A stretch of DNA of 64,000 nt. It comes from Harmothoe impar. Lineage: Eukaryota > Annelida > Polychaeta > Phyllodocida > Polynoidae. The notes under the pieces are model-generated. The model saw only the letters and a list, made by a program, of their open reading frames with translations, was not told where the DNA came from and did not search any database. Positions 19,246 to 42,830 of the stretch are shown in pieces. Where the stretch lies: assembly GCA_947462335.1 (NCBI GenBank), contig OX381714.1, positions 59,069,800-59,133,799 of the forward strand. Reading direction: 5' to 3'. The translations under genes were made by a program, and so were the position numbers. How positions within the stretch are numbered: position 1 is the stretch's first letter; each line of letters begins with the position of its first letter.

Positions 19246-19251
19246 CAGGAG
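19246..19251. repeat. Left target-site duplication CAGGAG
   Basis: Identical to the six bases directly after the right end (28,872-28,877). A 6-bp duplication is the length described for Polinton/Maverick elements, set by their retrovirus-like integrase. Confidence 0.8.
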
Positions 19252-19317
19252 AGTAGTATATAATGTATCGGAACGGGACTATGCTTAAGTACTGTTTATT
19301 ACTCAATCGACATGCAG

Positions 19318-19670
19318 CCAATCAGAGGCCTCCATTTGGTCACGTGACCGGAAGTGACCTACTTAGGGTATTAGTGGTGACGTCACGTGACCTAGTTAGC
19401 CAATCAGAGGCCGCCATTTGGTCACGTGACCGGAAGTGACGTCATATGACCTACTTATGGACCGGAAGTGACGTCATATGACCTACTTAGGGGACCGGAA
19501 GTGACGTCATATGACCTAATTTAGGATCACGTGACCGGAAGTGACCTGATGAGTCACGTGACCGGAAGTGACGTCACATGACCTAATGGACAACCGGAAG
19601 TGAGTGACCTCATTGAGGATCACGTGACCGGAAGTGACCTGATTGATCACGTGACCGGAAGAAGTGACGT
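19318..19670. promoter_or_regulatory. Array of CCAAT / E-box / ETS / CRE-like motifs
   Basis: The composite CACGTGACCGGAAGTGACGT recurs with spacing of roughly 25-45 bp, with variants ending in CATATGACC. By sequence these are CACGTG (USF-type E-box), CCGGAAGT (ETS/GABP core), TGACGTCA (CREB/ATF) and, at the outer end, CCAAT with GCCGCCATTTG (YY1-like). The mirrored array is at about 28,440-28,800. A promoter, enhancer or replication-origin role is inference. Confidence 0.55.
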
Positions 19671-19867
19671 CATGCGACTTAATGAAGAGATGAGCGTCTT
19701 TAAGGGGTCACGCGCTTTAAAATGTGATATATATTTTTTTTGGAGGAGGCGAGTCTCTTATTTTTTTTGGTAAACCAATAAAAAACACAACAATATAGGG
19801 GGGTGGGGGGGCACTCTAAGGGGCGTTTGTCTCTTTTAAGAAAAAAAGAAAGAAAAGAATTTAATCG

Positions 19868-19909
19868 AGAGACACACTTCTTCCTCTCGAGAGGAAGAAG
19901 TGTGTCTCT
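19868..19909. repeat. Perfect 42-bp palindrome (left arm)
   Basis: Two 21-bp arms meet at CTC|GAG with no spacer. They read AGAGACACACTTCTTCCTC outward to centre, then the mirror. An identical palindrome lies in the right repeat (27,962-28,003). It could extrude as a cruciform or act as a protein-binding or processing site. Confidence 0.9.
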
Positions 19910-20130
19910 TAATTTTTTTGTTTAGGAAGTGACCTGATGAGGCACTTGACTAGAAGTGACGATGTCACATGAGTGACACTTTAAGAGGTCACGCGACTTA
20001 CTAATAAAAGAAGACGTATGAAAATAAAAACACAACAATAATTTTATTTTATTTTTTTTATTTCTTTTTTTTTCAATCTTGATAAACACTCTATTTTTGA
20101 AAAGATGCGCTCAATCAATCAATAACACAC

Positions 20131-20136
20131 TTTATT
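20131..20136 (-). terminator. Polyadenylation signal for polB
   Basis: AATAAA on the minus strand begins about seven bases after the PolB stop codon and is followed by GTGTGTTATTG, a GT-rich downstream element. Confidence 0.5.
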
Positions 20137-20142
20137 TTTTTT

Positions 20143-23100
20143 TCATATCTCTAAAGGACTCGTTGTCACACCGTCAGAATGCACGCGACGCTTATAATAC
20201 AAGTAGCGCACGCCGTCTTTCTCTATGGTGTAGGTGACCATTTTGTTTCGCACCACTTTGAAATTTCTAATTACCGCAAGGAGAGTTTTTCGTTGGCGAA
20301 GAACATCCAAGAAGTCTTCTGGTTCTTTAGGGTTTTGTTTCTTCTGTACACCTTTTGCACTCCATTTTTTGGATTTTCTTTCACCGGTGCCGCTGACTCG
20401 ATCGTAGCAAATGTAAGTCTTAGGGTTGAGACTTAGGATCCCGTCACCTTCCCACTCCGCTTTCATAAGCCCCGAAGTTCTCAGATCATGAAGGTAACGT
20501 CTCTCACAACATCCGCCGGGCGGCGGACACCATTCTCGCACTCTTTCCGTTTTTGTCTTCACGAAAAGCTCTAAGTGATCGTCGCACACCGCTGTCGGAA
20601 TCCACTTTCGTTTCTCTCTGAAGTACGTCTCTCTCAGGCGAGGTTTGACTAGGTCATCCAACGTGTCACCACTGAGAGCCATGTAAAGACTGTCGGTGTC
20701 CATTTGACAAAGAGCATGATCGCGCCGATCGACGAATCTATCCAAGAAGTTGTATGTGAACATTTTCAACTTCGCGTACTGGTATACCATGAACCCTATT
20801 TGAATAGGGAGGTTGTTCTTGACTGTTTTCGGTTGTAGTTCGACTTCAAACAGATCAGAACTCAACTCGGACGCCTTTTTGAAGCGCCACGAATTGGCCA
20901 ATAGTTCGAACTTCCGACTGTCAGTGTATCTCACCGCTGTGTGTTTTTCTTTGTTGCAGATTGTTTTACCGTACGTGGCGTTTCCCATTAACTTGTAACA
21001 GTCTGACAGAATTTTCTTGTTCTCGTTCACGTCTCCACGTCTTCGCGCCGCCGTTACTTCGTCCGCGAAACCGGCAAAGGAGCGTTTAGGTAGGTATTCT
21101 ACGACCAGCTGCACTTTGGTGACTATCAAACCGTGCTCTAAATACCACTTGAGAAGGGGGCGTTCCCAAGAGAATATTTTTTCCGTGGTAACTCCCTATC
21201 AGACATCTCTGAGGCGTGTTCAACAGCTTTTCTTCCTGCGCAAAGTCTGGCATGTGAGGTCCTATGTCTGATTTTGAAACGGACACGTTCTTGAAAAGGG
21301 GGCTCATTTCTTCGAAGTAGTCTCGTAGGTGAGGCGGCGTAGTGATGTCCACTTGAACTAAACCGAACATTTTCCCGTCTTTGACAGCGGAAAGGATGTC
21401 GCTCTTGCTCATTGCGTTTCGAGACACTTTCAAAGCGTCAACCTTCCAGTGTTGTTGGGAGGCCTTACACACGACGACCAGCTTGTGACCTAGCGCTTTT
21501 AAGTAAGCGCTTACTCTAGCCGTTCTGTCGCGTCTCTCCTCCCTCAGTGAAGCGCACTGATATCGGTGCGACGGTATGCACTCGTGAGCGTGGAACCAAC
21601 ACCCGTGAAACTGGAAAACCGTATTAGAGGCCGCGTGAAACCCGTCGACGCGAATTCTTCGACAGCCTAGAACCATCTCGCCGCCGTTGAAAGCGTGGCG
21701 CAGTTTCACGTCGCGGTCGTGCTCTACGAAGCGTAACCACTCCAAAGCGCTGTGAGAGTTTCTTTGCCTAATTTCGGGCTTGAACTCGGTCTCAGGTCGT
21801 CTCACCGCGTAATAGCCCGTGCAGTGCGCTTCGCTCATGCAGCGCAAGTACAGAGAGTTAGCGTCTAGGCCTAGGATGTGCTGGCACGGTCTCGCTTCTT
21901 CGCCGTACTTGTGCTCCCTTATCCGCGTGGTACCCTTCTCGTGAAATCTATGGAAGATGATGGAAGGACCGCCGACTAGATTTTCTTTGATCAGAGCGTG
22001 GAGGACGGCGTCGAACTGGGGGAACGTTGTGAACGCGTCTTCTAGGTTTTGGAAGAGGAACCATAAAGTCAAACCGGCGAGAGAAATCCCGTCTTTCAAC
22101 ATGTCAATGCCGCGATCTTGGAAAAATTTAGCGTGATTTTTCAGAGCTTCTATGAAAGGTTTGACCTCTTTGTTGTTGTAGTGGATCAAGTAATCTCCCA
22201 TAGTTTGCATCTTCTCGTCGGACCAAACTTTCTGACATGCGGCGTAGTCGGATTCGGACATTTTGACGCCCGTCAGTTCGCTGTCAAAAGCCGATCTCGG
22301 TGGCAGTGTTCTGTTTCCCAGTTTCCTGGTAGACGTCATCCATTTGTAAGGAAAGTGACCTTTCTCTTCGTTTCTGGTGAAAGCTCGCAAATAGTTCGGG
22401 TAGTTGTAACCGGGTGCCAAATAGTTGACTACGTCCAAGAAAACCGTGTGCTGTGTGTAAACCGCCAAGTATTGATTGCTTCTCTTTATGACGCTGAATT
22501 CTTGGTTTCTTCGGTCTCCGGAGGCAAAGAACGAGTGAAGGCGTATTTTGATCAGGTTCAAGTCGTAACGCCCCGAGTTGAAGCCCACGACTGGAGCTTG
22601 ACGGATGTATCTCAGAAGCCGCTTCTTCAGTTGAACTAACGGGTGTCTGGTCTGAGCCGCAGCGAAGCCGCCTGGAGAAGGGGTGAATGTCGCCTCCTCC
22701 AGCAGGAGAGCTTCACCTATCGCGGCATCTAACTTCGCTAACGCTAACCCCGATGACTTTGGCGTTCTCGTTTATGTGATTTAAAACTCGGTCCAACAAG
22801 GGGTCGGAATCTGCGTCGGATTCTCTGACGAAGCAGACTGGCCCCTCCCACCCCGGAAAGTCGGATGCGACGCTAGCCGACAAAGGGACGTGATCCCACA
22901 GCAGGGACACGTGTTCCGTCGACGGTTCTCTGCACGGTCTGAAGAAAGCCTCGAAATCGAAGGTGATCTTGTAAGGGTAGATTCCGGAATGTCCGTCGGG
23001 AGGAAAAATGGAGAAGTCTGCTAGCGCTTCGAAAATCGTTCTCGAATTTTGGTAGATGCCACCTACGTAGCGCAACTTGACTTGTCGGCAAGAGGAAAGC

Positions 23101-24197
23101 TGGTTCCTGTGTCTCTTCAGCAAGAACTCGGTGGTGAACGCCGCCTTACACTTGCAACATTCGTATATGCCCGCGTACGCGTTGAAGTCCGTGACCAGAG
23201 AGACGTGCAAACCGCCTTTCGCCGTCAGGTGTAGGTTGACTTTACCTCGGGCGGCCAGAGTTCTGGAAGGCGGTCTGATCAGAGTAACACATCTTCTCAA
23301 CTTCCGCCCCGGCACCTGACGCGACGCGGTGTAAACCGCTATTTGTACGTCAAACAAGTTCTCTAACGCGGATAAGTTGCGGATGTTCAAACCCGGAAAG
23401 GTTTCAGGTGTGGCAGCGGGACAGAACTGACGTAACAAATCTGAAGCGCGCTTGCTGGTGTTGTATAAGTGAAAGGAAATGCAGCGGAAGACGCAGAGGT
23501 TGTCCTTGTTGGGAAAATCTAACACGCCGCTTCTCTTTCCAACTCGACCGGCCTGAGTGATCCTACCGCCTATGGGAAATTCCCCCGGTCCCATGTAAAC
23601 ACAAATGTTCAAATTGGTAGGAAAAAGAACGTGCCACTTGGTGTCAGCGTCGCAAAATTTCCGTACTTCCTCGCAAGCGACGGTGTTTTCCGTCTTTGAG
23701 AGGAGCTCTTCCAAAGTTTCTGAATTAGTTATAGTAGGGAGCGGTTGTATGAGAGTTGCGTTGTTCTGGGAGGCGTGAAAGTAGCGCAGTTTGCTCTTGT
23801 CTTCTCTGTGTTGTAAGAGTAAGCCTACCGAGAAACCCACTTTGTATCTGAATCTTTGCGTGAAGTGAATGCGACGCATAGTATCTACAGCGTCACTCAA
23901 CTCGCCGGTTGGTAGCCTGAAGTTTGTTACACTCACGCGAGTCCCGTGCATCCTGACGCCCGTTTGTATTGCAGGCCAATTCGCCGTGAACGTTTCCTCA
24001 CCGTTCGGTACAGCACATATGCGCGGAGGGATAGTCACCCCGTCCAGAGATTTGCGTCGACAGGTGATCTTTCGGCAATCGCCTTCGCCGCATAGAGGGC
24101 AAAACTTAGGTATTACTCTACATTTTTCTACGTGTCTCTCGTGATTGTACGGTCTTTTAAAAATTTTGAAACACTTTTCGCAGACGTACTGCGTCAT
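20143..24197 (-). CDS. Protein-primed family-B DNA polymerase, frameshifted
   Basis: Replicates linear DNA from a protein primer in Polintons, adenoviruses and relatives. ATG at 24197, stop at 20143, about 1,350 codons. In order: a C2HC zinc finger (C6, C9, H22, C26) and a Cys cluster; a DNLCVFRCISFHL segment resembling OTU-like regions; a second C2H2-like finger; ExoI TFDFEAF (about 22,950); ExoII GFNSGRYDLNLI (about 22,570); ExoIII-like HYNNKEV (about 22,170); motif A LDANSLY (about 21,865); HGCWFH; motif B KLMGNATYGKT (about 20,975); motif C MDTDSLY (about 20,695); KTY (about 20,415). The frame shifts by one base near 22,758 and near 21,153, giving three segments. ExoIII has Glu where Asp is usual. 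As it stands no full-length product is predicted. Confidence 0.9.
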
Positions 24198-24264
24198 GTT
24201 TTTTTTGTTTTTTTTTGTTTTTTCACTTAGTTACCAATTAAAAAAAGTTTTTTCCCAACTACTT

Positions 24265-24301
24265 AGCCGTCTATCTATCTATCTATCAATCTATCTATCT
24301 G

Positions 24302-24346
<45 letters not shown>

Positions 24347-24375
24347 ATATCTATCTATCTATCTGTCTGCTGTCT
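24265..24375. repeat. (TCTA)n microsatellite
   Basis: About 110 bp of TCTA/TCTG units between the PolB start and the end of the PC4-domain gene, inside the element. It leaves roughly 250 bp between the two genes, which must hold any separate PolB promoter. Confidence 0.85.
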
Positions 24376-24449
24376 GTGTATCCGTCTGTCTGTTTCATAC
24401 AGCGTACGTCAAACACTGTGTGTGTGCGCGCGTGAGCGTTGAGCGTCTC

Positions 24450-25968
24450 TCATTCCAAATCCATACCGAGAAATTTGAGAATATTCTCTGTTTTGTCATC
24501 CAACTCTTTGAGCGCTCTGGCGGACAGCGTCACCCCCTGCTGTGTGGGTTTTTTGTCAGGACCTTCGTACTTGCGCACGTGGATGAGGTTCTTACCGCTG
24601 TAGTAGCTCACAGCTGCGTACACTGCGCGGATCTCGGTGATGCGCGCTATTAGCTCGCGCAGCGCGTCAGCGGTGAAGTGCACTCGCTTGCTTCTGGTCA
24701 GAGACGCCTCTTTCACCTGGCCGTCTTTTGTGTAGCGCGGCCTCCTAGACAGTCTAGCCTCGTCCTCCCAGATCTCCAGCGTCAAAGTCCCGTCTAAGCA
24801 GAACTCTAACCCGAGAGGACGGGGGGTTTTCTCTGCTTCTTCTCGTCCATCTTCTTCTTTTTCTTGTATTTTTCTCTTCTTAGTAGGCCTTGTTGTTCTG
24901 GAACCCGCCTTAGAAAGAAAAGAGTAACACCATCAGCGTGAGCTGAATCAGCAGCAGAACCAATAACAGGAGCAGCGTCAGCGCTGGTATCCGACGACTC
25001 GTTGTTGGAACAGAGCAGCCACACGCCGTCGGTGCTGAGTGTAGCGGTAGAAGATGAAGCGCCGCCGCCCTCGTAAGGTGGCGGTGAGGGCAGTCGCCAC
25101 GGACCGGATGCGCTACCAGTGGAAGTGAGGTCGAAAGTAGTGGAAGAGGGGAGCCGAAAAAACGTACCGTCCACCCGTTGCCCTTCGGGTTCGTCGTACG
25201 CCTCGTCGTCAGTGTCGTTCTCTGTCTCACCCTGTTGCTGCTGCTCCTCCTCCTCCTCTTCTTCTTGGTTTAGGGGCTGAGTGTCCGAATAGCTGTAAGT
25301 CTCAGCGCGAGCAGCGTCGATGGCGTCGGTTGATGTGGTGGTGGAGAGGGGCTGTGCAACGTGCGGCAGGTCATCAAAATCAGCAACAGTAGTGGGGAGG
25401 TAAAACCCCGGTTGCCAGTACTGCACTGTGCCAGGAGTGTTGTCGTCAGTAGTAGTAGCGGTAGCAGCAGGTGCAGCAGCAGCAGCAGCAGCAGGCGCAA
25501 CAGTAGCAGGCGCAGCAGCCTCAGCAGGCGCAGCAGTAGCAGGCGCAGCAGTAGCAGGCGCAGCAGCAGCAGCAGCACGAAGAGCACCAGCAGCACGAGG
25601 ATCACCAGCACCAGCAGCAGCAGCACAAGGAGCAGCAGCAGCAGCAGGCGGGGCAGCAGTAGCAGCGGCAGCTCGCTTAGCAGCAACAACCGTCGCGAGT
25701 GTAACAAGGCGCTAGCACGACGACTACTACCAGTAGTACTGCTACTACTACTACTACTACTACTACTACCGCTACTACTACTACTACCAATACTGCTGCG
25801 AGCGTTCGCTACAGCGGGAGGGTGATAAGACCGAGCGGTTGCGGCGGTAGTCTCATCTTCAGTAGCAAGAGGAGGCGCTGACGCTAAACGTGCGCTGTTC
25901 CGCGTAGTCTTCTTGTTCTTGAACTTGCTTAGATCCTTGGACGGCCCTAGGTGTTGTCTTTTGCTCAT
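24450..25968 (-). CDS. Low-complexity protein with C-terminal PC4-like ssDNA-binding domain, frameshifted
   Basis: ATG at 25968 lies in a perfect context (CCACCATGA). The reading begins MSKRQHLGPSKD, basic and then Ser-rich. It continues, after a one-base shift near 25,710, into an Ala/Pro-rich stretch encoded by GCT/GCC repeats, then a Thr/Asp- and Glu/Gln-rich acidic region. A second one-base shift near 24,917 leads to a PTKKRK nuclear-localisation-like motif and a C-terminal domain. That domain (SYYSGKNLIHVRKYEG, KKPTQQGVTLSARALKEL) matches the PC4/p15 fold that binds single-stranded DNA. The domain has no ATG of its own, so it belongs to this gene. A role as replication SSB for the adjacent PolB is inference. 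Confidence 0.6.
25450..25800. repeat. CAG/GCA and TAC triplet repeats in coding sequence
   Basis: CAG-type triplets (25,450-25,680) and ACT/TAC triplets (25,725-25,795) give open frames in several phases, hence long artificial Leu-, Ser- or Ala-rich ORFs. The frame linking to the downstream acidic region is the Ala/Pro one. Confidence 0.8.
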
Positions 25969-26026
25969 GGTGGTGACTGTAGAGAGCGGCAAAAGACTGA
26001 GTGAGTGAATGGGGGTTTCCAGACCC

Positions 26027-26034
26027 CTTATATA
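26027..26034 (-). promoter_or_regulatory. TATA box of the PC4-domain gene
   Basis: TATATAAG on the minus strand, about 60 bp upstream of the ATG at 25968. The spacing suggests a transcription start near 26,000 and a short leader. Confidence 0.55.
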
Positions 26035-26039
26035 CGCCT

Positions 26040-26430
26040 TCTCGCTTCAAGAGCTAAGCTACTTACTGCCCTGTTCAGCTGCCGCCGGCTGACCCGCGGC
26101 CATTCACAAAGAGAAACAAAAGACATAATGCATGATGTTTTCAGCTGGATCCCTTTCCCCCCTTTTGAGAGATCGACTGACATGAGCTAAGCTACTTACC
26201 ACCCTGTTCAGCAATTCAACGCGCATTAGCTGTATAAAGGATTAAGCGGTTGCTGCCGCCGGCTGACCGGCGGCCATTCACAAAGAGAAACAAAAGACAT
26301 AATGCGTGACGTTTTCAGCTGGATCCCTTTCTCCCCCCCCCCCTCTCTTTTGAGAGATCGACTGACATGAGCGGGCAGTGTACCGACTGTGCTAATTCAA
26401 CGCGCATTAGCTGTATAAAGGATTAACGGT
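26040..26430. repeat. Duplicated intergenic segment
   Basis: Two copies of a segment of roughly 170 bp stand in direct order. CGGCCATTCACAAAGAGAAA begins near 26,097 and 26,271. AATTCAACGCGCATTAGCTG, followed by TATAAAGGATTAA, begins near 26,213 and 26,393. This lies in the region between the divergent genes and may double promoter elements. No ORF of note. Confidence 0.7.
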
Positions 26431-27039
26431 CATGAGCTTAGAGTGTGTATACAAAAAAACTACAGGAGGCGTGTGGCGTGAAGCAGGACCCCCTAAGACG
26501 AGTGTGTCTGTCTGTGAGTAGGGTCGTGTGCATGTGGTGAGCGACTTAAGTGTTAAACAAAAAAAAATCCCCGCCTCCTGCCGTGGTGAGTAGACCGGGC
26601 CAGCCGGCGGCGGCCGGCTAGTTCAATAGGGGTGACAGCTGACTAAGGCTGTGCATGAAAAAATCCGATTTTCACCTGACCTCTGACGTTTGTTACAATG
26701 AATGTCAGAGGGAGAGAGAGTCGTCCTCAGGTAGGGGGTAGGAGGTAAGGCTATGGATGAGGAAAAAACACCATTTTCAGCTGGCCTCCACCGATAGCGA
26801 TAACATACTCTTCGTCATCTAAGCTCTTAAGAAGCTCTTAAGGAGCGGAGCGGCTGAAAAGCGTCATGCGGACAGGTCGCTAGACAGCTGGGGTGCTGTT
26901 GGAAATAGGATCAAACTCCCTCTGTATAAAAGCTCTGATTTCTGTTGGAAAAAAACCATATCGCCTCTGACCACAGTAACGTCTACTACCACCACCACTG
27001 CCACCACCGCCGCCGCCGCGGCCGCCAAGACGAGACGAG
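26430..27039 (+). promoter_or_regulatory. Promoter and leader of the death-domain gene
   Basis: TATAAAAG at 26,925-26,932 is 108 bp before the ATG at 27,040. The leader is rich in CCACCG and CCGCCG triplets. Upstream, 26,430-26,900 holds no ORF. Confidence 0.5.
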
Positions 27040-27776
27040 ATGGCTCAAGCTATTGCACTTTCAAGCTCGCCTTCACCCCCTTGTCCACCTGAAAAGTTAA
27101 TGCGGCTTCACGACGTGAGATGCGCGGTGCAGACCGATGGCGAGAATAGAGAGGTAGGACAGCGGCGCTTAGCATATAGCGACGCCTTGCTTCGTCAACT
27201 AGGTAAAGAGTTGAGCGGATCTTGGAGAGTGTTGGGCAGTAGCTTAAAAGTTACCGCCGCCCGTATGGATGCTCTAGTAGAGCGCAGTGTCAAGACACCG
27301 GAGGAGCTGTGTACGGCGATGTTCCGAGTCTGGTGGGGTGAAACCCCGCATCGTCATAGATGGGGAGAGCTCGGCCGCGTCTTCACCCGCATTAGACGAG
27401 TGGAACTGTTGGCTCAGTGGATGTCCCTTCTCCACAGGCAGGGGTTGGATTTCGAGAACCCCGACTCGCACGGGATGCATAAGCACTTGGGCGCCCTCAG
27501 CAGACGCCTAGGTAGCAGGTGGAAAGAGGTGGGGGACATTTAAAATTGTCGCCTGAGAGGTTAGATAAGATCGCTGAAGAATGCGAATACGGAGGACGTC
27601 CCGCTGAGTGGGCCTTCCGAGTGTTGAAAATGTGGCAAGCTGAAGCTGACGGTGCCGGCAGTACACCTTTTGAACTCCTTCGAGTGTTGACTGAGGACAT
27701 GGGAAAGTTTGACCTCGGCATCGCGATATTACTTGACTTTATCAAGCAAGAAACAACGAGAACAACGGACATGTGA
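27040..27776 (+). CDS. Protein with two tandem death domains, frameshifted
   Basis: Death domains are six-helix interaction modules of apoptosis and innate immune signalling (FADD, MyD88, IRAK types). ATG at 27,040 has a good context. After a Ser/Pro-rich leader, residues about 48-131 show the death-domain pattern (LGKELSGSWRVLGSSLKV, then FRVW and a final Leu-rich helix). A second domain starts near residue 146 (LGALSRRLGSRWKEVG). A one-base shift near 27,538-27,545 puts its remainder (helices around LSPERLDKIAE, VLKMW and DLGIAILLDF) in another frame, ending at 27,776. No enzymatic domain is present. Interference with host death or immune signalling is inferred from the fold only. It sits next to the right inverted repeat and diverges from the replication genes. 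Confidence 0.8.
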
Positions 27777-27961
27777 ATTGTTGTGTTTTATTTTCATACG
27801 TCTTCTTTATTAGTAAGTAAAAAAAATATTATAACAATTAAGTCGCGTGTCCTCTTAAAGTGTCACTTCCTCCGGTCGCGGCTGATCGCCTCATTAGGGC
27901 ATGTGACGTCGTCACTTCTAGTCACGTGCCTCATCAGGTCACTTCCTAAACAAAAAAATTA

Positions 27962-28003
27962 AGAGACACACTTCTTCCTCTCGAGAGGAAGAAGTGTGTC
28001 TCT
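27962..28003. repeat. Perfect 42-bp palindrome (right arm)
   Basis: Same sequence as at 19,868-19,909, centred on CTC|GAG. Confidence 0.9.
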
Positions 28004-28079
28004 CGATTAAATTCTTTTCTTTCTTTTTTTCTTAAAAGAGACAAACGCCCCTTAGAGTGCCCCCCCACCCCCCTAGAGT

Positions 28080-28160
28080 GCCCCCCTCCCCCCTCCCCTC
28101 CCCTCCCCTCCCCTCCCCTCCCCTCCCCTCCCCTCCCCTCCCCTCCCCTCCCCTCCCCCC
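28080..28160 (+). repeat. (CCCCT)n array
   Basis: About 15 units of CCCCT, followed by C-runs. The minus strand (AGGGG)n is a strong G-quadruplex candidate. The left arm has only a short G-run at the matching place, so this is an expansion in one arm. Confidence 0.85.
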
Positions 28161-28439
28161 CACCCACCCCATGCATCCTAAAAGCGCCCCCCTCCCCATG
28201 CATCTTAAAGGGGCCCCCCTCCCCCCTACCCTCCCCTCCCCCCTTATACACTCTAAAGAACACTTCTACCTAGTTCAATAAGTCACTTCCAGTCGCTCAT
28301 AAAAAATAAAATGAAAAAACAAACTTATATTGTTGTGTTTTTTATTGGTTTACCAAAAAAAATAAGAGACTCGCCTCCTCCAAAAAAAATATATATCACA
28401 TTTTAAAGCGCGTGACCCCTTAAAGACGCTCATCTCTTC

Positions 28440-28810
28440 ATTAAGTCACGTGACGTCACTCCTTCCGGTCACGTGATCAATCAGGTCACTTCTGGTCACG
28501 TGATCCTCAATGAGGTCACTCACTTCCGGTTGTCCATTAGGTCATGTGACGTCACTTCCGGTCACGTGACTCATCAGGTCACTTCCGGTCACGTGATCCT
28601 AAAAAAGGTCATATGACGTCACTTCCGGTCCCCTAAGTAGGTCATATGACATCACTTCCGGTCCATAAGTAGGTCATATGACGTCACTTCCGGTCACGTG
28701 ACCAAATGGCGGCCTCTGATTGGCTAACTAGGTCACGTGACGTCACCACTAATCCCCTAAGTACGTCACTTCCGGTCACGTGACCAAATGGAGGCCTCTG
28801 ATTGGCTGCA
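28440..28810. promoter_or_regulatory. Right-arm array of ETS / E-box / CRE-like motifs
   Basis: Mirror image of the left array: repeated TCACTTCCGGTCACGTGA and GACGTCACTTCCGGT, ending with two CCTCTGATTGGCT (inverted CCAAT) boxes. Confidence 0.55.
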
Positions 28811-28871
28811 TGTCGATTGAGTAATAAACAGTACTTAAGCATAGTCCCGTTCCGATACATTATATACTACT

Positions 28872-28877
28872 CAGGAG
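28872..28877. repeat. Right target-site duplication CAGGAG
   Basis: Directly follows the CTACT end of the element and equals 19,246-19,251. Confidence 0.8.
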
Positions 28878-37693: not shown

Positions 37694-40447
37694 TTATGTC
37701 ATATTATAATTAGTACTACCCAGCCATTTTTTCCTATTAAGCTTAAATGCCTCATAGTCTAGAATATTTCTTATACCAACAGTTAGGCTGTTCCATGTCA
37801 TTGCTCCTCTATACAGAGCACTTTTCTTACAGGACTCATTTTTTGGCTTGATGCTTAGAAATAGAGGCGCGTCATGAGCCCTTGTGTGTATATTCCTAGT
37901 ATTTCTTATCTCTATATTATTTTTCTGCTTAAACATGAAATTCACAAGGTGCATAATACGTCTAGGTTCTAACTTTGAGATAAAGGCCATTTGATGAGTT
38001 AAAATAACTGGGTACCTGTAGTCCAGCCCCAAACTCATACGTAAGGCCCTATTTTCAACGACTTGAATTTTATCCAAGATGGCTTTTCGAGCAACTCCAT
38101 AAAAAATATCTCCATAGTCTGCATGTGGCAGTACCATGGTCTTGTACATATATAGCATGGTATCGTTGTTCATACAATCTCTTAATACAGCCATTTGATG
38201 TACACGATATACTACCTTCTTGTAAGCAGATTCGGCTTGCATATTAAAGTTTAGAACAGGGTCAAGGATTACTCCCAAATATTTAAAGCTTATACATCTA
38301 TCAATTTCTTTATCTCCAAACATGACCTTATGAGCTAATATCTCTTTCAATCTCGATCTAAGACCAAAAATCATAAAATTTGTTTTTTTCGCATTTAAAG
38401 TGAGCTTATTTTTCCTAAACCATAGAGATAAACGTGTCAGGTCCTGCTCAAGAGAGATAGTTAACTCGTTCAAATTTTGTCCTGTCATTGATACCACCGT
38501 ATCATCTGCATACAGATAAGTTTTGGAGTTGAAAATAACATTTCTCAAGTCGTTAATATACACTAAAAAGAGGGTGGGGCCCAGTATGGACCCCTGAGGG
38601 ACCCCACAGACCACATCCCCCTCTTCAGAGGTAATTCCATTGGCAAATGTTTTTTGTTTTCTGTCTTTCAAATAATTTGCCAACCATTTATAAAGAAGAC
38701 CTCCGACACCTAATTTTGACAATTTTTCTAAAAGAATAAAGTGATTTACGGTGTCGAAAGCCTTCTTTAATTCCACAAACACAGACAACGTGTAATGTCT
38801 ATTATTTATACCCCTGTATATGTCATCTGTAAAATAGGCAACAGTAGAAATGGTAGAGTGATCCGCCCTAAAGCCACCCTGCTGAGCGTCTAATAAATCG
38901 TTATCTTCAAGGTAACCAATTAACCTATTATTAACTATTTTTTCTAATAACTTACCAATAATAGGTAATAGTGTAACAGGTCTTAAGTTAGCTACGTCAG
39001 CTTTGTTGCCTTCTTTCTGTAGGGGGATCACTGTACCAGTCTTCCATTTATCGGGTATAATAGAAGTGACAAATGATTCATTAAACAGAACCGTTACCCT
39101 ATCCGGTATTGCAAGTAGGCAGTCCTTTAGAGCTCTGGCTGAGATGCCATCAATAGCCGAAGACTTATTCACCTCAATTTCTTTAATATATTTTAATACC
39201 TCCACCTCATCAGTGTGTATGTCACCAATGCCTTCCTCCTTGATTAAACCATCATATGACCATTCATCATCGTAGGTTGAGGCCAGCTTGGGTCCTATGT
39301 TCAAAAAATAATTATTTATAAAATTTGGGGTGTCGTCTGGCAAAATGTCTATGTCATTTTCTTGATCTCTTAAGTTAAAGTTGGAATGTTCTTTTTTACC
39401 TTTAATAATCGTATTAAGTATTTTCCAGAATTTCTTACTATCTTTCTGATTTTCCTCTAGGCTATCTCTAATAAATTTGGCTTTAGCTTTTTTGATAGTT
39501 TTATGTACACTATTGCGTAATTTACTTGCATTCTGCCAGTCAACCGGACTCTTAGTAGCCTTAGCCTTTCTTAGCGCTAAATCCTTATCTCTAATTATCT
39601 CTAGAATGTAGTCAGTTATCCACGGTGCTCTTTCTTTCCTCACCTTGAATGTCTTTAAAGGGCACATTTCATTTAAAAATCTGGACAAAAGACCCAAAAT
39701 GAATTCCCATCTGTCATTTACATTGTGACAGTCATCCCATGGTCCCCAGTCAGCATTTTTAATACAGGCCTTAAATAATTCACTATCATATTTACGGTAG
39801 GTTCTACCTGTGAATGATACCTTCTCATACGTGACATAATTTCCTAGCAAAGTAATGCCTACTAACAAGTGATCGCTTACATTCCAATTTCTAGTAAAGG
39901 CCACATAGCTTTTAGATGTATTTGTTACAACCCAATCCAGACATGTACTCGTATCCTCAGTAGACCTTGTAGGCACATCTATTAGTTGTTTAAGGCCCAA
40001 AATGTTAATACATACCTTCATTAACTTAGTTGAAACCTTATTCACATTTAGATAGTCGAAATTAAAATCACCCATAATTATTAGATCTTTCCTACGTAAA
40101 TTACACCTTTCAATTTGAGAATTAAATGCTTCTATAAACAGTGCCTTGTTACCATCCGGTGGTCTATAAACATTTGCTACTACAATATTTTTTTTTCCAT
40201 TTCTAACAATTTCCACCCAATGAATTTCTATATCATTACTGCTAACATTCAAGTGAGCATAGTTGCTTGTTGAATACGATACATCATTCCTTATATACAA
40301 TCCAACTCCTCCTCCAGATTTATCATCTCCCCAACCCCTATTTAGCCCCTCAAATGAGTAACCATCAACATGATACCTATGGCTAGCAGTATCTTCGTCT
40401 AGCCATGTCTCAGAAATGCCAAGGACTGCATCTAACTTATCCCACAT
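37694..40447 (-). CDS. LINE ORF2: endonuclease-reverse transcriptase
   Basis: Nicks target DNA and copies the element RNA. The endonuclease part has SETWL, YRPP, MGDFNFD and NVSDHLL. The RT part has AIDGISARALK, LRPVTLLPIIGKLLEK, FVELKKAFDTV (motif A), GVPQGSILGP, YLYADD (motif C) and a KYLGVILDP thumb segment. Motif A has Glu where the catalytic Asp is expected, which may disable it. The first ATG is at 40,447. The frame stays open upstream to a TAG near 40,577, and that upstream part still reads like the endonuclease start (LNTRSLISKIETL). The true start may therefore be non-ATG, lost, or reached by reinitiation. Confidence 0.9.
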   Translation of the reverse strand: MWDKLDAVLGISETWLDEDTASHRYHVDGYSFEGLNRGWGDDKSGGGVGLYIRNDVSYSTSNYAHLNVSSNDIEIHWVEIVRNGKKNIVVANVYRPPDGNKALFIEAFNSQIERCNLRRKDLIIMGDFNFDYLNVNKVSTKLMKVCINILGLKQLIDVPTRSTEDTSTCLDWVVTNTSKSYVAFTRNWNVSDHLLVGITLLGNYVTYEKVSFTGRTYRKYDSELFKACIKNADWGPWDDCHNVNDRWEFILGLLSRFLNEMCPLKTFKVRKERAPWITDYILEIIRDKDLALRKAKATKSPVDWQNASKLRNSVHKTIKKAKAKFIRDSLEENQKDSKKFWKILNTIIKGKKEHSNFNLRDQENDIDILPDDTPNFINNYFLNIGPKLASTYDDEWSYDGLIKEEGIGDIHTDEVEVLKYIKEIEVNKSSAIDGISARALKDCLLAIPDRVTVLFNESFVTSIIPDKWKTGTVIPLQKEGNKADVANLRPVTLLPIIGKLLEKIVNNRLIGYLEDNDLLDAQQGGFRADHSTISTVAYFTDDIYRGINNRHYTLSVFVELKKAFDTVNHFILLEKLSKLGVGGLLYKWLANYLKDRKQKTFANGITSEEGDVVCGVPQGSILGPTLFLVYINDLRNVIFNSKTYLYADDTVVSMTGQNLNELTISLEQDLTRLSLWFRKNKLTLNAKKTNFMIFGLRSRLKEILAHKVMFGDKEIDRCISFKYLGVILDPVLNFNMQAESAYKKVVYRVHQMAVLRDCMNNDTMLYMYKTMVLPHADYGDIFYGVARKAILDKIQVVENRALRMSLGLDYRYPVILTHQMAFISKLEPRRIMHLVNFMFKQKNNIEIRNTRNIHTRAHDAPLFLSIKPKNESCKKSALYRGAMTWNSLTVGIRNILDYEAFKLNRKKWLGSTNYNMT

Positions 40448-41201
40448 ATGTATACGTAATGTTTCAATTTTTGAAATTAAACTCCTAGTATTTAGGTGGG
40501 ATAGAGTGAATTCGTTCTTGCTATTTCTTTTTAAATTATTACCTGGCAGGATACCGTATGGGTTTGCCCGCTATGTCTCCTCCCATATAGAACATACATT
40601 TTAAACAATAATAAAGCAGGTTATGACAACTAGTGTCCCCCACTGGAGGATTTCTCCCCATTGCTAGGCTTAGAGGAGCATTAGTCAGCCTACAAAGATT
40701 AGAGAAAGCTGCACCCCCCCCCCCTTACATTATTACTATCCCCCAATAAATTTTACCAAGAAAAGTAAGTTATTTATATTATGATTAATTAAAGTGATAT
40801 GTTAATCGTCACTATATAAATAATCCATTTGACCAAAGTTAACATATTATTCAGAAACAATTGAGTGTATGATATGGTACAAATACATGTAGAGTCGACT
40901 CCAGCAGTGGCCGTGCTAATCTACCATACCGGTAGCGTCTAACATAGAAGTTGTGCGATCAGCTGATCGGCCTGGAGGTGGCGCCGCCTGGTGTAAACTA
41001 ACCATACTATGCGTTTTGCTTAACGTGATACGGTATGTATAGGCTATACATGTCCAGCACTAAGTTAGTCTAGAGGTACATATACATTCTTATATAAATA
41101 TAACCAAGGTCTTTACATAAAGAATAACATGATTCAGTGTAGATCTAGTTATGTATCACGATTTTAGTATAGACCGGTACACCATATAATGCAACTTCCA
41201 C

Positions 41202-42638
41202 TCATGTTTTTAGTTCATCTCTGAGCTCCATCAGTAGGCTTCCCATTCTGTTGCTTTTTACACTTCTCGGCGTGATTTTGTCTACCTGCGAGATGGTGTA
41301 TCCACAGCCCCAGCCTTTCTCTGTTGATGCTTCGTATAACGTCCCGGTAGTCTCTATCAGCTTAGCCTTGAGGTCATCATCTTGTGTGAACTTCAGTTTA
41401 ATGCAGTCCGCCATAATGTCATATCTTTTGATGTGAGAGTCTTGCTTTGTGTAAGCTATCCTATATGAAAGCTTTTTGGCCTCATAACCATCCTCGCTAA
41501 GCATTATAGCTTCTGCTGTGTCGTAATCTTCATTATACACTGCTAGTCTGTACCAATACAGTTGCTCTGACGAGAGCCAATTGGTGTTATCATAAGAAAT
41601 AGAGCATTTGTACATGTTGGACAGGAACGAGTGATGTGACTGAAATGCTATGCCATGTTCAAAGTGAACAGTTTTGGCAGCCTCCATATCCACTCCTTCG
41701 GGAAGTTTGTGTATGTCTCTATACTGAAACACCTCCTGGTCAACCTCTATCTTATTCCCCTTCACTCTGGCAGCCATCCCAAGGTCTCTGGCGACTGCAC
41801 TCAGACACCTCAGTTCTTTGCGCTCCTGTTGTTGTTCAAGTGATAGATCGTCGCTAATGAAGATCTTCTTCCATTTGTCGAGGTCTTTCATTTTACCTAT
41901 ATTGGTAAAGAGTTTCTGCTTTGAATCCATATCTCTGAACTTGATTAAAATGTTTCTTGGGCTAGTGGCATTATTTCTCATTTTGCCAATCCTATATGCA
42001 CTTTCAAGGTTTATTTTTTCGCCTTGAGTACACGCCCCAATATCATTCATCAGATCCAATAGGATTTTTCGTGGGGTATCCTGTCCCTCTGGGAATGCCT
42101 CAATGATAATGTTTTTGCGTTTACGATCCTCATCTAAGGCTCTGACCCGCATTTTCTCTTTGTCGAGTCTATGTGATAGTCTCTGGTTAGAAATGTCCAG
42201 ATTTTTGCACTCAAAGTTCCTCTCATCTAAGAGTTTTTCAGCTCGTTCCATTCTGGTGGTGAGAGCCTCTATACAGGTCTCAGTGTCAGATTTAAACTGG
42301 TCGTATGTGGATATGTGCGAGCCTAATTTAGTATCATTGGCTTTTATAGATGCTTCTAACCCCTCAAACTTGACTATCATGTCCTTGTTTGACTTTTTAA
42401 GCTCCAACATGGATTCTAAAAGCTGATCGTTAACTGACTTCTCACCCGCCATTGTTGTTTTGTCACTGTCAGACCCTATAGGCCTGCGTTCAATAGGAGT
42501 CACAGTGCAGTTAGCCTTGACAGGTGTGTTGTTTACCTGCCGCTCCTCACCTGACGCTGTTGACACCGTCCCGCGTCCGCTTCCACTCCTCCCTCGTCTC
42601 ACCTGAGTATTAGCTTTCTTCAAACTAGGTCCTGGCAT
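41202..42638 (-). CDS. LINE ORF1: coiled coil, RRM-like and NADAR domains
   Basis: ATG at 42,638 (MPGPSLKK), about 478 residues. The basic Ser-rich N-terminus is followed by a coiled coil (about residues 68-175), an RRM-like segment starting KRKNIIIEAFPEG (about 175-262) and a linker. The C-terminal 150 residues match NADAR/YbiA: FLSNMYKCSISYDNTNWLSSE with the key Glu near residue 358, AKKLSYRI, IMADCIKLKFTQ, GWGCG and GSLLMELRDEL. The first parts are normal for an RNA-binding ORF1 protein. NADAR proteins act on ADP-ribosylated or N-glycosidic substrates, including ADP-ribosyl-guanine. Its role here is unknown; the fusion is in frame with no break. Confidence 0.85.
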   Translation of the reverse strand: MPGPSLKKANTQVRRGRSGSGRGTVSTASGEERQVNNTPVKANCTVTPIERRPIGSDSDKTTMAGEKSVNDQLLESMLELKKSNKDMIVKFEGLEASIKANDTKLGSHISTYDQFKSDTETCIEALTTRMERAEKLLDERNFECKNLDISNQRLSHRLDKEKMRVRALDEDRKRKNIIIEAFPEGQDTPRKILLDLMNDIGACTQGEKINLESAYRIGKMRNNATSPRNILIKFRDMDSKQKLFTNIGKMKDLDKWKKIFISDDLSLEQQQERKELRCLSAVARDLGMAARVKGNKIEVDQEVFQYRDIHKLPEGVDMEAAKTVHFEHGIAFQSHHSFLSNMYKCSISYDNTNWLSSEQLYWYRLAVYNEDYDTAEAIMLSEDGYEAKKLSYRIAYTKQDSHIKRYDIMADCIKLKFTQDDDLKAKLIETTGTLYEASTEKGWGCGYTISQVDKITPRSVKSNRMGSLLMELRDELKT

Positions 42639-42830
42639 ATCGAATATATTGGCAATTATACATTCCACGCATGCCTCAGACGTTTATGAAGATTTGCTCT
42701 CAGTTTCTGGTCATCTCGCTGCTCAAATACCCTTAAAAGGTGGTGGTACGCCTTCCCCGCACTCTCAGCTAACCTGTGCTTGCCGCCATTCTTTTTCTAT
42801 GATATGGGTTATTTTAAATCCCTCCCCCCT

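Follow-up and report, generated by a model that had tools for sequence, protein, structure and literature searches.

A Polinton-type element of Harmothoe impar as a probable segment of a bipartite virus or transposon

Many eukaryotic DNA viruses are viewed as descendants of Polintons (Mavericks), among whose traits is a 6-bp target duplication. We know of no Polinton with PolB, integrase and capsid genes that is not a single molecule. In a stretch of 64,000 nucleotides from the polychaete Harmothoe impar (GenBank assembly GCA_947462335.1, contig OX381714.1, positions 59,069,800 to 59,133,799 of the forward strand), which as a whole is referred to here as the window and whose numbering is used below, an element of 9,620 bp (19252-28871) carries the genes of a PolB, a PC4-type protein and a double death-domain protein. 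We propose that this element is probably segment A of a bipartite Polinton-type virus or transposon, of which a second class of elements in the same genome, bearing the complementary genes, would be segment B.

Polintons typically consist of one molecule of 15-20 kb (PMC4061559). The elements described here are like Polintons and adintoviruses in having long inverted repeats and a 6-bp duplication in both A and B, a Polinton-type PolB in A only, and, in B only, an rve integrase, a double jelly-roll capsid protein, an adenovirus-type protease and a packaging ATPase, but they differ in that the genes are divided between two elements, each of about 10 kb, that have a 98-bp end in common, and do not lie on one molecule of 15-20 kb. 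Polinton-like viruses (PLVs) mostly have no PolB, as is the case for segment B, and carry other replication proteins (PMC11071308); unlike segment B, they mostly have no rve integrase either, and the available part of that paper mentions no partner element with PolB. The nearest parallel is provided by the Bidnaviridae, in which Bombyx mori bidensovirus (VD1/VD2) has a linear two-segment DNA genome with a Polinton-derived PolB, inverted repeats and conserved termini (PMC4061559), comparable with the 98 bp of A and B. Bidnaviruses differ in their single-stranded DNA, parvovirus-type capsid protein, SF3 helicase and segments of 6-6.5 kb, whereas the capsid model of B matches the double jelly-roll type and the SF3 helicase family is absent from the Pfam matches of the ten B open reading frames (ORFs) scanned. 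Members of the bidnavirus group with up to twelve segments have also been reported (PMC11071296). Furthermore, nine Polintons were described in which the major capsid protein, protease and ATPase genes are jointly absent, as in segment A; in the available part of that survey, which dropped elements below 10 kb as incomplete, this was read as concerted loss and no partner element was mentioned (PMC4028283). No bipartite Polinton was described in the titles and abstract beginnings among the literature matches listed, most subscription papers and Repbase being outside the scope of that search.

An earlier note, made from the letters of the window, had claimed long inverted repeats and a perfect 6-bp CAGGAG duplication for the element, and both were confirmed. 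The duplication lies at 19246-19251 on the left and at 28872-28877 on the right, and the arms of the inverted repeat (19252-19971 on the + strand and 27900-28871 on the - strand) are 98% identical over 547 nt and again 98% identical over 181 nt deeper inside, with a C-rich stretch of about 250 nt in the right arm (about 28081-28325) that has no counterpart in the left arm. The outermost 98 bp of the left end (19252-19349, + strand), of which the right end is an inverted copy (28774-28871, - strand), are common to capsid-bearing elements. A terminal 37-letter pattern was found within the window solely at the two element ends and in none of 100 shuffles.

The host genome, at 1.51 Gb, holds many relatives of the element. 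The inverted repeat was found at 40 places at 97-100% identity and at one further place as a partial match at 74% (40 scored, 1,475 candidates), and the best 86 of 8,129 candidates for the PolB middle piece, which were those scored, were 93-100% identical to that of the window; the PolB list, like those of capsid and integrase copies below, is a top-scoring subset of thousands of candidates. Copies of segment A that are complete number five, namely the window element (9,620 bp) and copies C13 (11,231 bp), C14 (9,842 bp), C83 (10,744 bp) and C18 (9,932 bp), and, as the earlier note had suggested, their gene content and duplications were compared. All five hold the PolB, PC4 and death-domain genes, although C83 is without most of the PolB middle, none has a match to B genes at E<=1, and each is flanked by a 6-bp duplication (CAGGAG, CACATC, CCCCCC, GGTGGG and ATAGTG), of which the CCCCCC of C14 is of low complexity and hence weak. 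In three other A copies scanned, the death-domain protein is a 246-aa frame with two Death stretches of 28-33 bits; its structure model, with a mean predicted local distance difference test (pLDDT) value of 43.5, was not used. In C83 (L031, L032), the inverted repeat is lengthened, reaching about 1.7 kb, and includes at the left end a further death-domain gene that is partial. A PolB match at C10:23840977 lies about 2.6 kb from a right-type terminus (C10:23844476) and is probably a shortened A copy. The broken frames of the window element and its missing integrase and capsid genes could suggest a single internal-deletion relic of a full Polinton; with an identical gene set in five complete copies and a PolB frame of at least 1,370 aa open in 12 of the 86 scored copies, we regard this as very improbable, and a simple internal deletion is contradicted by the multi-copy family.

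The complementary class was found by use of a relative in which the genes are not split. This contig, L001 (QGON01000029.1, Escarpia-associated, 11.8 kb), was obtained by a PolB-alignment scan of genome contigs and is filed under a tubeworm endosymbiont, but it is probably host DNA rather than that of the endosymbiont. It carries PolB (open over 1,409 aa), a packaging ATPase, an rve integrase with a chromodomain (33.8 bits, cutoff 25.1), the major capsid protein, a putative minor capsid protein and a protease on one contig, unlike the division between A and B, which indicates that this PolB family is also found in an ordinary, unsplit Polinton. The PolB of L001 is about 40-42% identical to that of segment A, and its capsid protein and integrase are about 36-38% identical to those of segment B. 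With the L001 capsid protein as the query, the best 96 of 2,685 host candidates were scored; all were 36-37% identical, and 94 of the 96 had no internal stop.

Three B copies (C12, C4 and C19) were read outward, the fetched stretches covering all but the left end of C19 and, in C12 and C4, short gaps within the capsid gene. Both ends were found for C12 (10,536 bp, duplication CAGCAT) and C4 (10,507 bp, duplication GAAGTT), so that 6-bp duplications were present in both B copies with both ends read. The gene order in C4 is ATPase, 391-aa protein, integrase, 372-aa putative minor capsid protein, 143-aa protein, major capsid protein and protease, and matches to L001 run in the identical order in C12, C4 and C19. 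The ATPase matched Adeno_IVa2 at 21.6 bits, just over the cutoff of 21, and the protease matched Peptidase_C5 at 23 bits, just over the cutoff of 21.3; the integrase matched rve at 50.2 bits and Chromo at 19.6 bits, the latter under the cutoff of 25.1. The 372-aa protein has no Pfam match and is named from its match to the L001 ORF in the corresponding place. A low-confidence model of the major capsid protein (mean pLDDT 51.0) was used solely for fold-family matches by Foldseek against PDB, in which the 50 listed matches were capsid proteins, including those of Sputnik, mavirus, PBCV-1 and PRD1, with TM-scores of about 0.3. We take these matches to be all of the double jelly-roll type, to which the major capsid protein of B is assigned on the basis of the model. 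In the protein collection, this protein has 42 relatives (the best six at 93, 81, 79, 79, 72 and 71% identity) and the death-domain protein has three (95, 78 and 56%, on ENA contigs of 0.8-2.7 kb), which suggests that both segments may occur in related hosts.

The two gene sets were compared in both directions. The window element gave no match at E<=1 to the integrase, ATPase, capsid protein or protease of the B class, in agreement with the earlier note, which had found no integrase or capsid gene in it. Conversely, the fetched B stretches gave no PolB or death-domain match at E<=1, and the two matches of PC4 to B (E=0.05 and 0.80) were at chance level. Without an integrase, the window element must depend on another integrase source. 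The earlier note had offered mobilisation in trans by a full-length relative, which holds in that the integrase must come from elsewhere, but the partner found is a second short element with complementary genes and the same 98-bp ends; the alternative of the note, a capsid-less replicon, need not be assumed as a self-sufficient unit. A and B are alike in size and together come to about 20 kb, the usual Polinton length. It could also be supposed that B is self-sufficient, through copying by the host, an unrecognised replicase of its own or cut-and-paste movement, and that A is a satellite borrowing the integrase and capsid of B. The location of the integration and particle set in B, the existence of PolB-less Polinton-like viruses that use other replication proteins (PMC11071308) and the several B proteins without a Pfam match are consistent with this; against it stand the absence of PolB and death-domain matches from B at E<=1 and the presence in A of both terminus lineages and of a PolB under purifying selection, as described below, and we consider such a satellite improbable.

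The ends of A and B were alike over the outermost 98 bp (93.9-100% identical to the window element), whereas identity between A and B in bp 99-140 was 26-30%. The earlier note would have taken copies with the same termini and with integrase and capsid genes in the same layout as the sign of an internal deletion. Only half of this applies: elements with these termini do have integrase and capsid genes, but no PolB was found in them, and their repeats differ from those of A past bp 98, which is not what an internal deletion produces. Among 59 distinct ends, three groups with identical 98 bp mix the two classes, comprising 13 ends (12 of B and 1 of A), 10 ends (4 of B and 6 of A) and 4 ends (3 of A and 1 of B).

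Two main terminus types were distinguished by their letters at bases 10-11 and at bases 32-33. The tree of the PolB 3' region was made from 25 copies in which 350 bp or more of this region was present, 23 of them with a typed end; in it, 9 type-2 copies were placed apart from 14 type-1 copies, some type-1 A copies having been found via the terminus and ten type-2 A copies having been picked from one PolB subclass. The tree of the capsid/protease region was made from 24 copies, 22 of which were typed, and 16 type-2 copies were placed apart from 4 type-1 copies, with the mixed-type copies L015 and L079 beside type 1. Both trees were midpoint-rooted after shorter rows had been dropped, and support values were not considered. 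The mean synonymous divergence (dS) between lineages was 0.078 for PolB (A1-A2, 35 pairs) and 0.087 for the capsid gene (B1-B2, 12 pairs), and that within lineages was 0.018 in A1, 0.057 in A2, 0.042 in B1 (one pair) and 0.032 in B2, as determined for 12 PolB copies, two of them with a stop, and 8 of 10 capsid loci, L015 and L016 having failed the start filter. A and B each split into two lineages at similar depth, with lineage-matched termini. The ratio of nonsynonymous divergence (dN) to dS was 0.22 for the PolB middle piece and 0.31 for the capsid gene, with dN below dS in 66 of 66 PolB pairs and 27 of 28 capsid pairs, and both genes are under purifying selection.

To count the elements, a 31-letter terminus pattern was used, with two free letters so that it covers both terminus types and both classes. 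It had 12,231 matches in the host (6,105 forward and 6,126 reverse; control, 0), which at two ends each corresponds by our arithmetic to about 6,000 elements and to approximately 4% of the assembly (60 Mb). Of the 100 ends listed first, 80 formed 40 convergent neighbouring pairs, of which 28 were 8.7-9.9 kb in size, 10 were 10.42-10.54 kb, the size of B, and the remaining two were 13.2 kb (C1:3921638-3934882) and 15.9 kb (C1:4267525-4283450). The pair at C1:2211094-2220687, the sole short pair checked for content, holds a PolB match. No capsid copy of the 96 scored lay closer than 60 kb to a scored PolB copy (86 in all), a result that is weak alone as both lists are top-scoring subsets. With the copies spread over many contigs and target duplications at several sites in both classes, an assembly or contamination artefact, in favour of which nothing was found, is hardly credible.

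The best 113 of 8,702 host candidates for the L001 integrase were also scored, and these were mostly frames of 369 aa (38-42% identical) and 376 aa (about 38%), nearly all with at least 249.5 bits. The integrase of B itself is a 399-aa frame in C12 and C4 and 327 aa in C19, with 237-248 bits by local phmmer; the 369- and 376-aa copies, differing from it in frame and score, are probably other elements or variants of B, with ordinary Polintons, a helper and a third segment as candidates, the last of these if an integrase family of unread context has the shared terminus. Examples are C12:63764958 and C1:11408673, and most 376-aa copies tie in score. No PolB copy of the 86 lay closer than 25 kb to any of the 113, one of which was 7.9 kb from a capsid copy. 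These integrases bear on the possibility that A and B are both non-autonomous and are moved by an unsplit helper Polinton still in the genome. Further Polinton-like integrase copies of unread context, the unsplit L001 elsewhere and the unread 13.2- and 15.9-kb pairs would fit such a helper. It is nevertheless unlikely, considering that 38 of the 40 pairs do not exceed 10.6 kb, that the repeats of A and B are unrelated past bp 98, unlike those of deletion derivatives of one parent, that no scored integrase copy was near a scored PolB copy, and that the PolB and capsid genes are under purifying selection.

Several points weigh against a division of the genome into A and B. In addition to the B proteins without a Pfam match, about 3 kb at the left end of B contains low-complexity or unmatched ORFs only, and it is possible that an unrecognised replicase is hidden in B. 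As each segment has split into lineages only once, a single comparison underlies the co-divergence, and A2 is deep in itself, as its within-lineage dS indicates. The termini of the B copies L015 and L079 are mixed, of type 2 at bases 10-11 and of type 1 at bases 32-33, and these copies are possibly recombinants between lineages. Regarding sizes, the short peak is tied to A by one pair only and does not include two of the complete A copies (11,231 and 10,744 bp), either of the longer pairs (13.2 and 15.9 kb) could be an unsplit element or a nested insertion, and 20 of the 100 listed ends were unpaired. Finally, the 113 integrase copies with unread surroundings score at or above the integrase of B, and the PolB, capsid and integrase lists hold top-scoring subsets alone.

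On balance, we somewhat favor the interpretation that A and B represent an animal DNA virus of the double jelly-roll kind with a bipartite or multipartite genome, present in endogenised form as about 6,000 elements, its two segments, similar in size and separately integrated, being linked by a lineage-specific 98-bp terminus recognised by PolB and integrase alike. Protein-primed replication, and perhaps control of host-cell death, would be the contribution of segment A (9.6-11.2 kb, with PolB, the PC4 protein and the double death-domain protein), and that of segment B (10.5 kb, with ATPase, integrase, protease and the major and putative minor capsid proteins) would be integration, packaging and particles. 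The PolB of A would start copying at the common ends of both segments and the integrase of B would cut and join those ends with a 6-bp stagger, both enzymes acting on both segments because both carry the common 98-bp terminus, and the ATPase and capsid of B would package each molecule. The PC4 protein may have a role in single-stranded DNA binding or transcription, and interference with the cell-death signalling of the host is a possible function of the death-domain protein. These two roles, as well as trans-complementation and separate packaging, are inferred.

In the window copy, all three genes are damaged, and the gene set named by the earlier note was present with one amendment, that the "PC4" ORF corresponds only to the C-terminal part of a larger protein rich in Ala and Ser. 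The PolB gene, on the - strand, is divided by two frame interruptions into three open pieces: an N-terminal piece (22713-24197) with weak zinc-finger matches and an exonuclease-like motif seen by eye, at least 90% identical to other copies; a middle piece (21086-22588) with palm motif A and, as an insertion, a stretch like a Vsr nuclease, again judged by eye; and a C-terminal piece (20143-21129) with palm motifs B and C (DTD), likewise by eye. The PC4-type domain (24450-24785, - strand) scored 24.7 bits against a cutoff of 25, and the N-terminal Ala/Ser-rich part (24806-25992, - strand) is broken here and open in copy L034, in which a 504-aa frame enters the PC4 segment before a break of its own. 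The double death-domain gene (27040-27776, + strand) is interrupted into 27040-27543 and 27519-27776, and its first piece scored 16 bits, under the cutoff of 22.6.

The PolB middle piece has 432 relatives (E<=0.001, 5,259 candidates), of which the 120 listed are 36-44% identical and mostly contain PF03175 (DNA_pol_B_2). The window piece itself scored only 11.8 bits for this family (cutoff 25.8), compared with 36.8 bits for the L001 PolB; judged by these relatives, the PolB of segment A is of the Polinton type, in the DNA_pol_B_2 family and the predicted protein-primed class. An OTU-like motif was noted by eye only; an N-terminal OTU-like domain is a trait of adintovirus PolB. The insert resembles a Vsr-type nuclease, which, apart from the relative P0114 being named Vsr by its source, is our own reading; Polinton polymerases with inserted homing endonucleases have been reported (PMC11071308). 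Two scans of viral contigs confirmed no PolB relatives, and the terminus pattern had no match in viral contigs. One contig of a Cohaesibacter metagenome-assembled genome, L002, has a PolB fragment at its first bases in frame with a long bacterial-looking ORF and was set aside as probably chimeric.

The inverted repeats contain tandem units of about 30-33 bp (19316-19690 and 28439-28807) rich in CACGTG, TGACGTCA and CCGGAAGTG, which we take to resemble E-box, CRE and ETS promoter sites; given such units, the element ends may also act as promoters. Each arm further contains a palindrome of about 42 bp (19868-19909 and 27962-28003), with the same sequence in both. Elsewhere in the window, a non-long terminal repeat (non-LTR) retrotransposon ORF (37697-42668, - strand) encodes an endonuclease and a reverse transcriptase (RVT_1, 109 bits), and an adjoining 488-aa ORF that ends in a NADAR domain (73.1 bits) is perhaps ORF1 of this retrotransposon.

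If A and B are indeed two segments of one system, a Polinton lineage can turn multipartite, which would provide a parallel for the origin of the two segments in the Polinton-derived bidnaviruses. Size filters, such as the exclusion of elements below 10 kb in the survey cited above (PMC4028283), can discard such systems. The 12,231 terminus matches in one genome would then be a natural record for measuring segment pairing, reassortment and terminus recognition.

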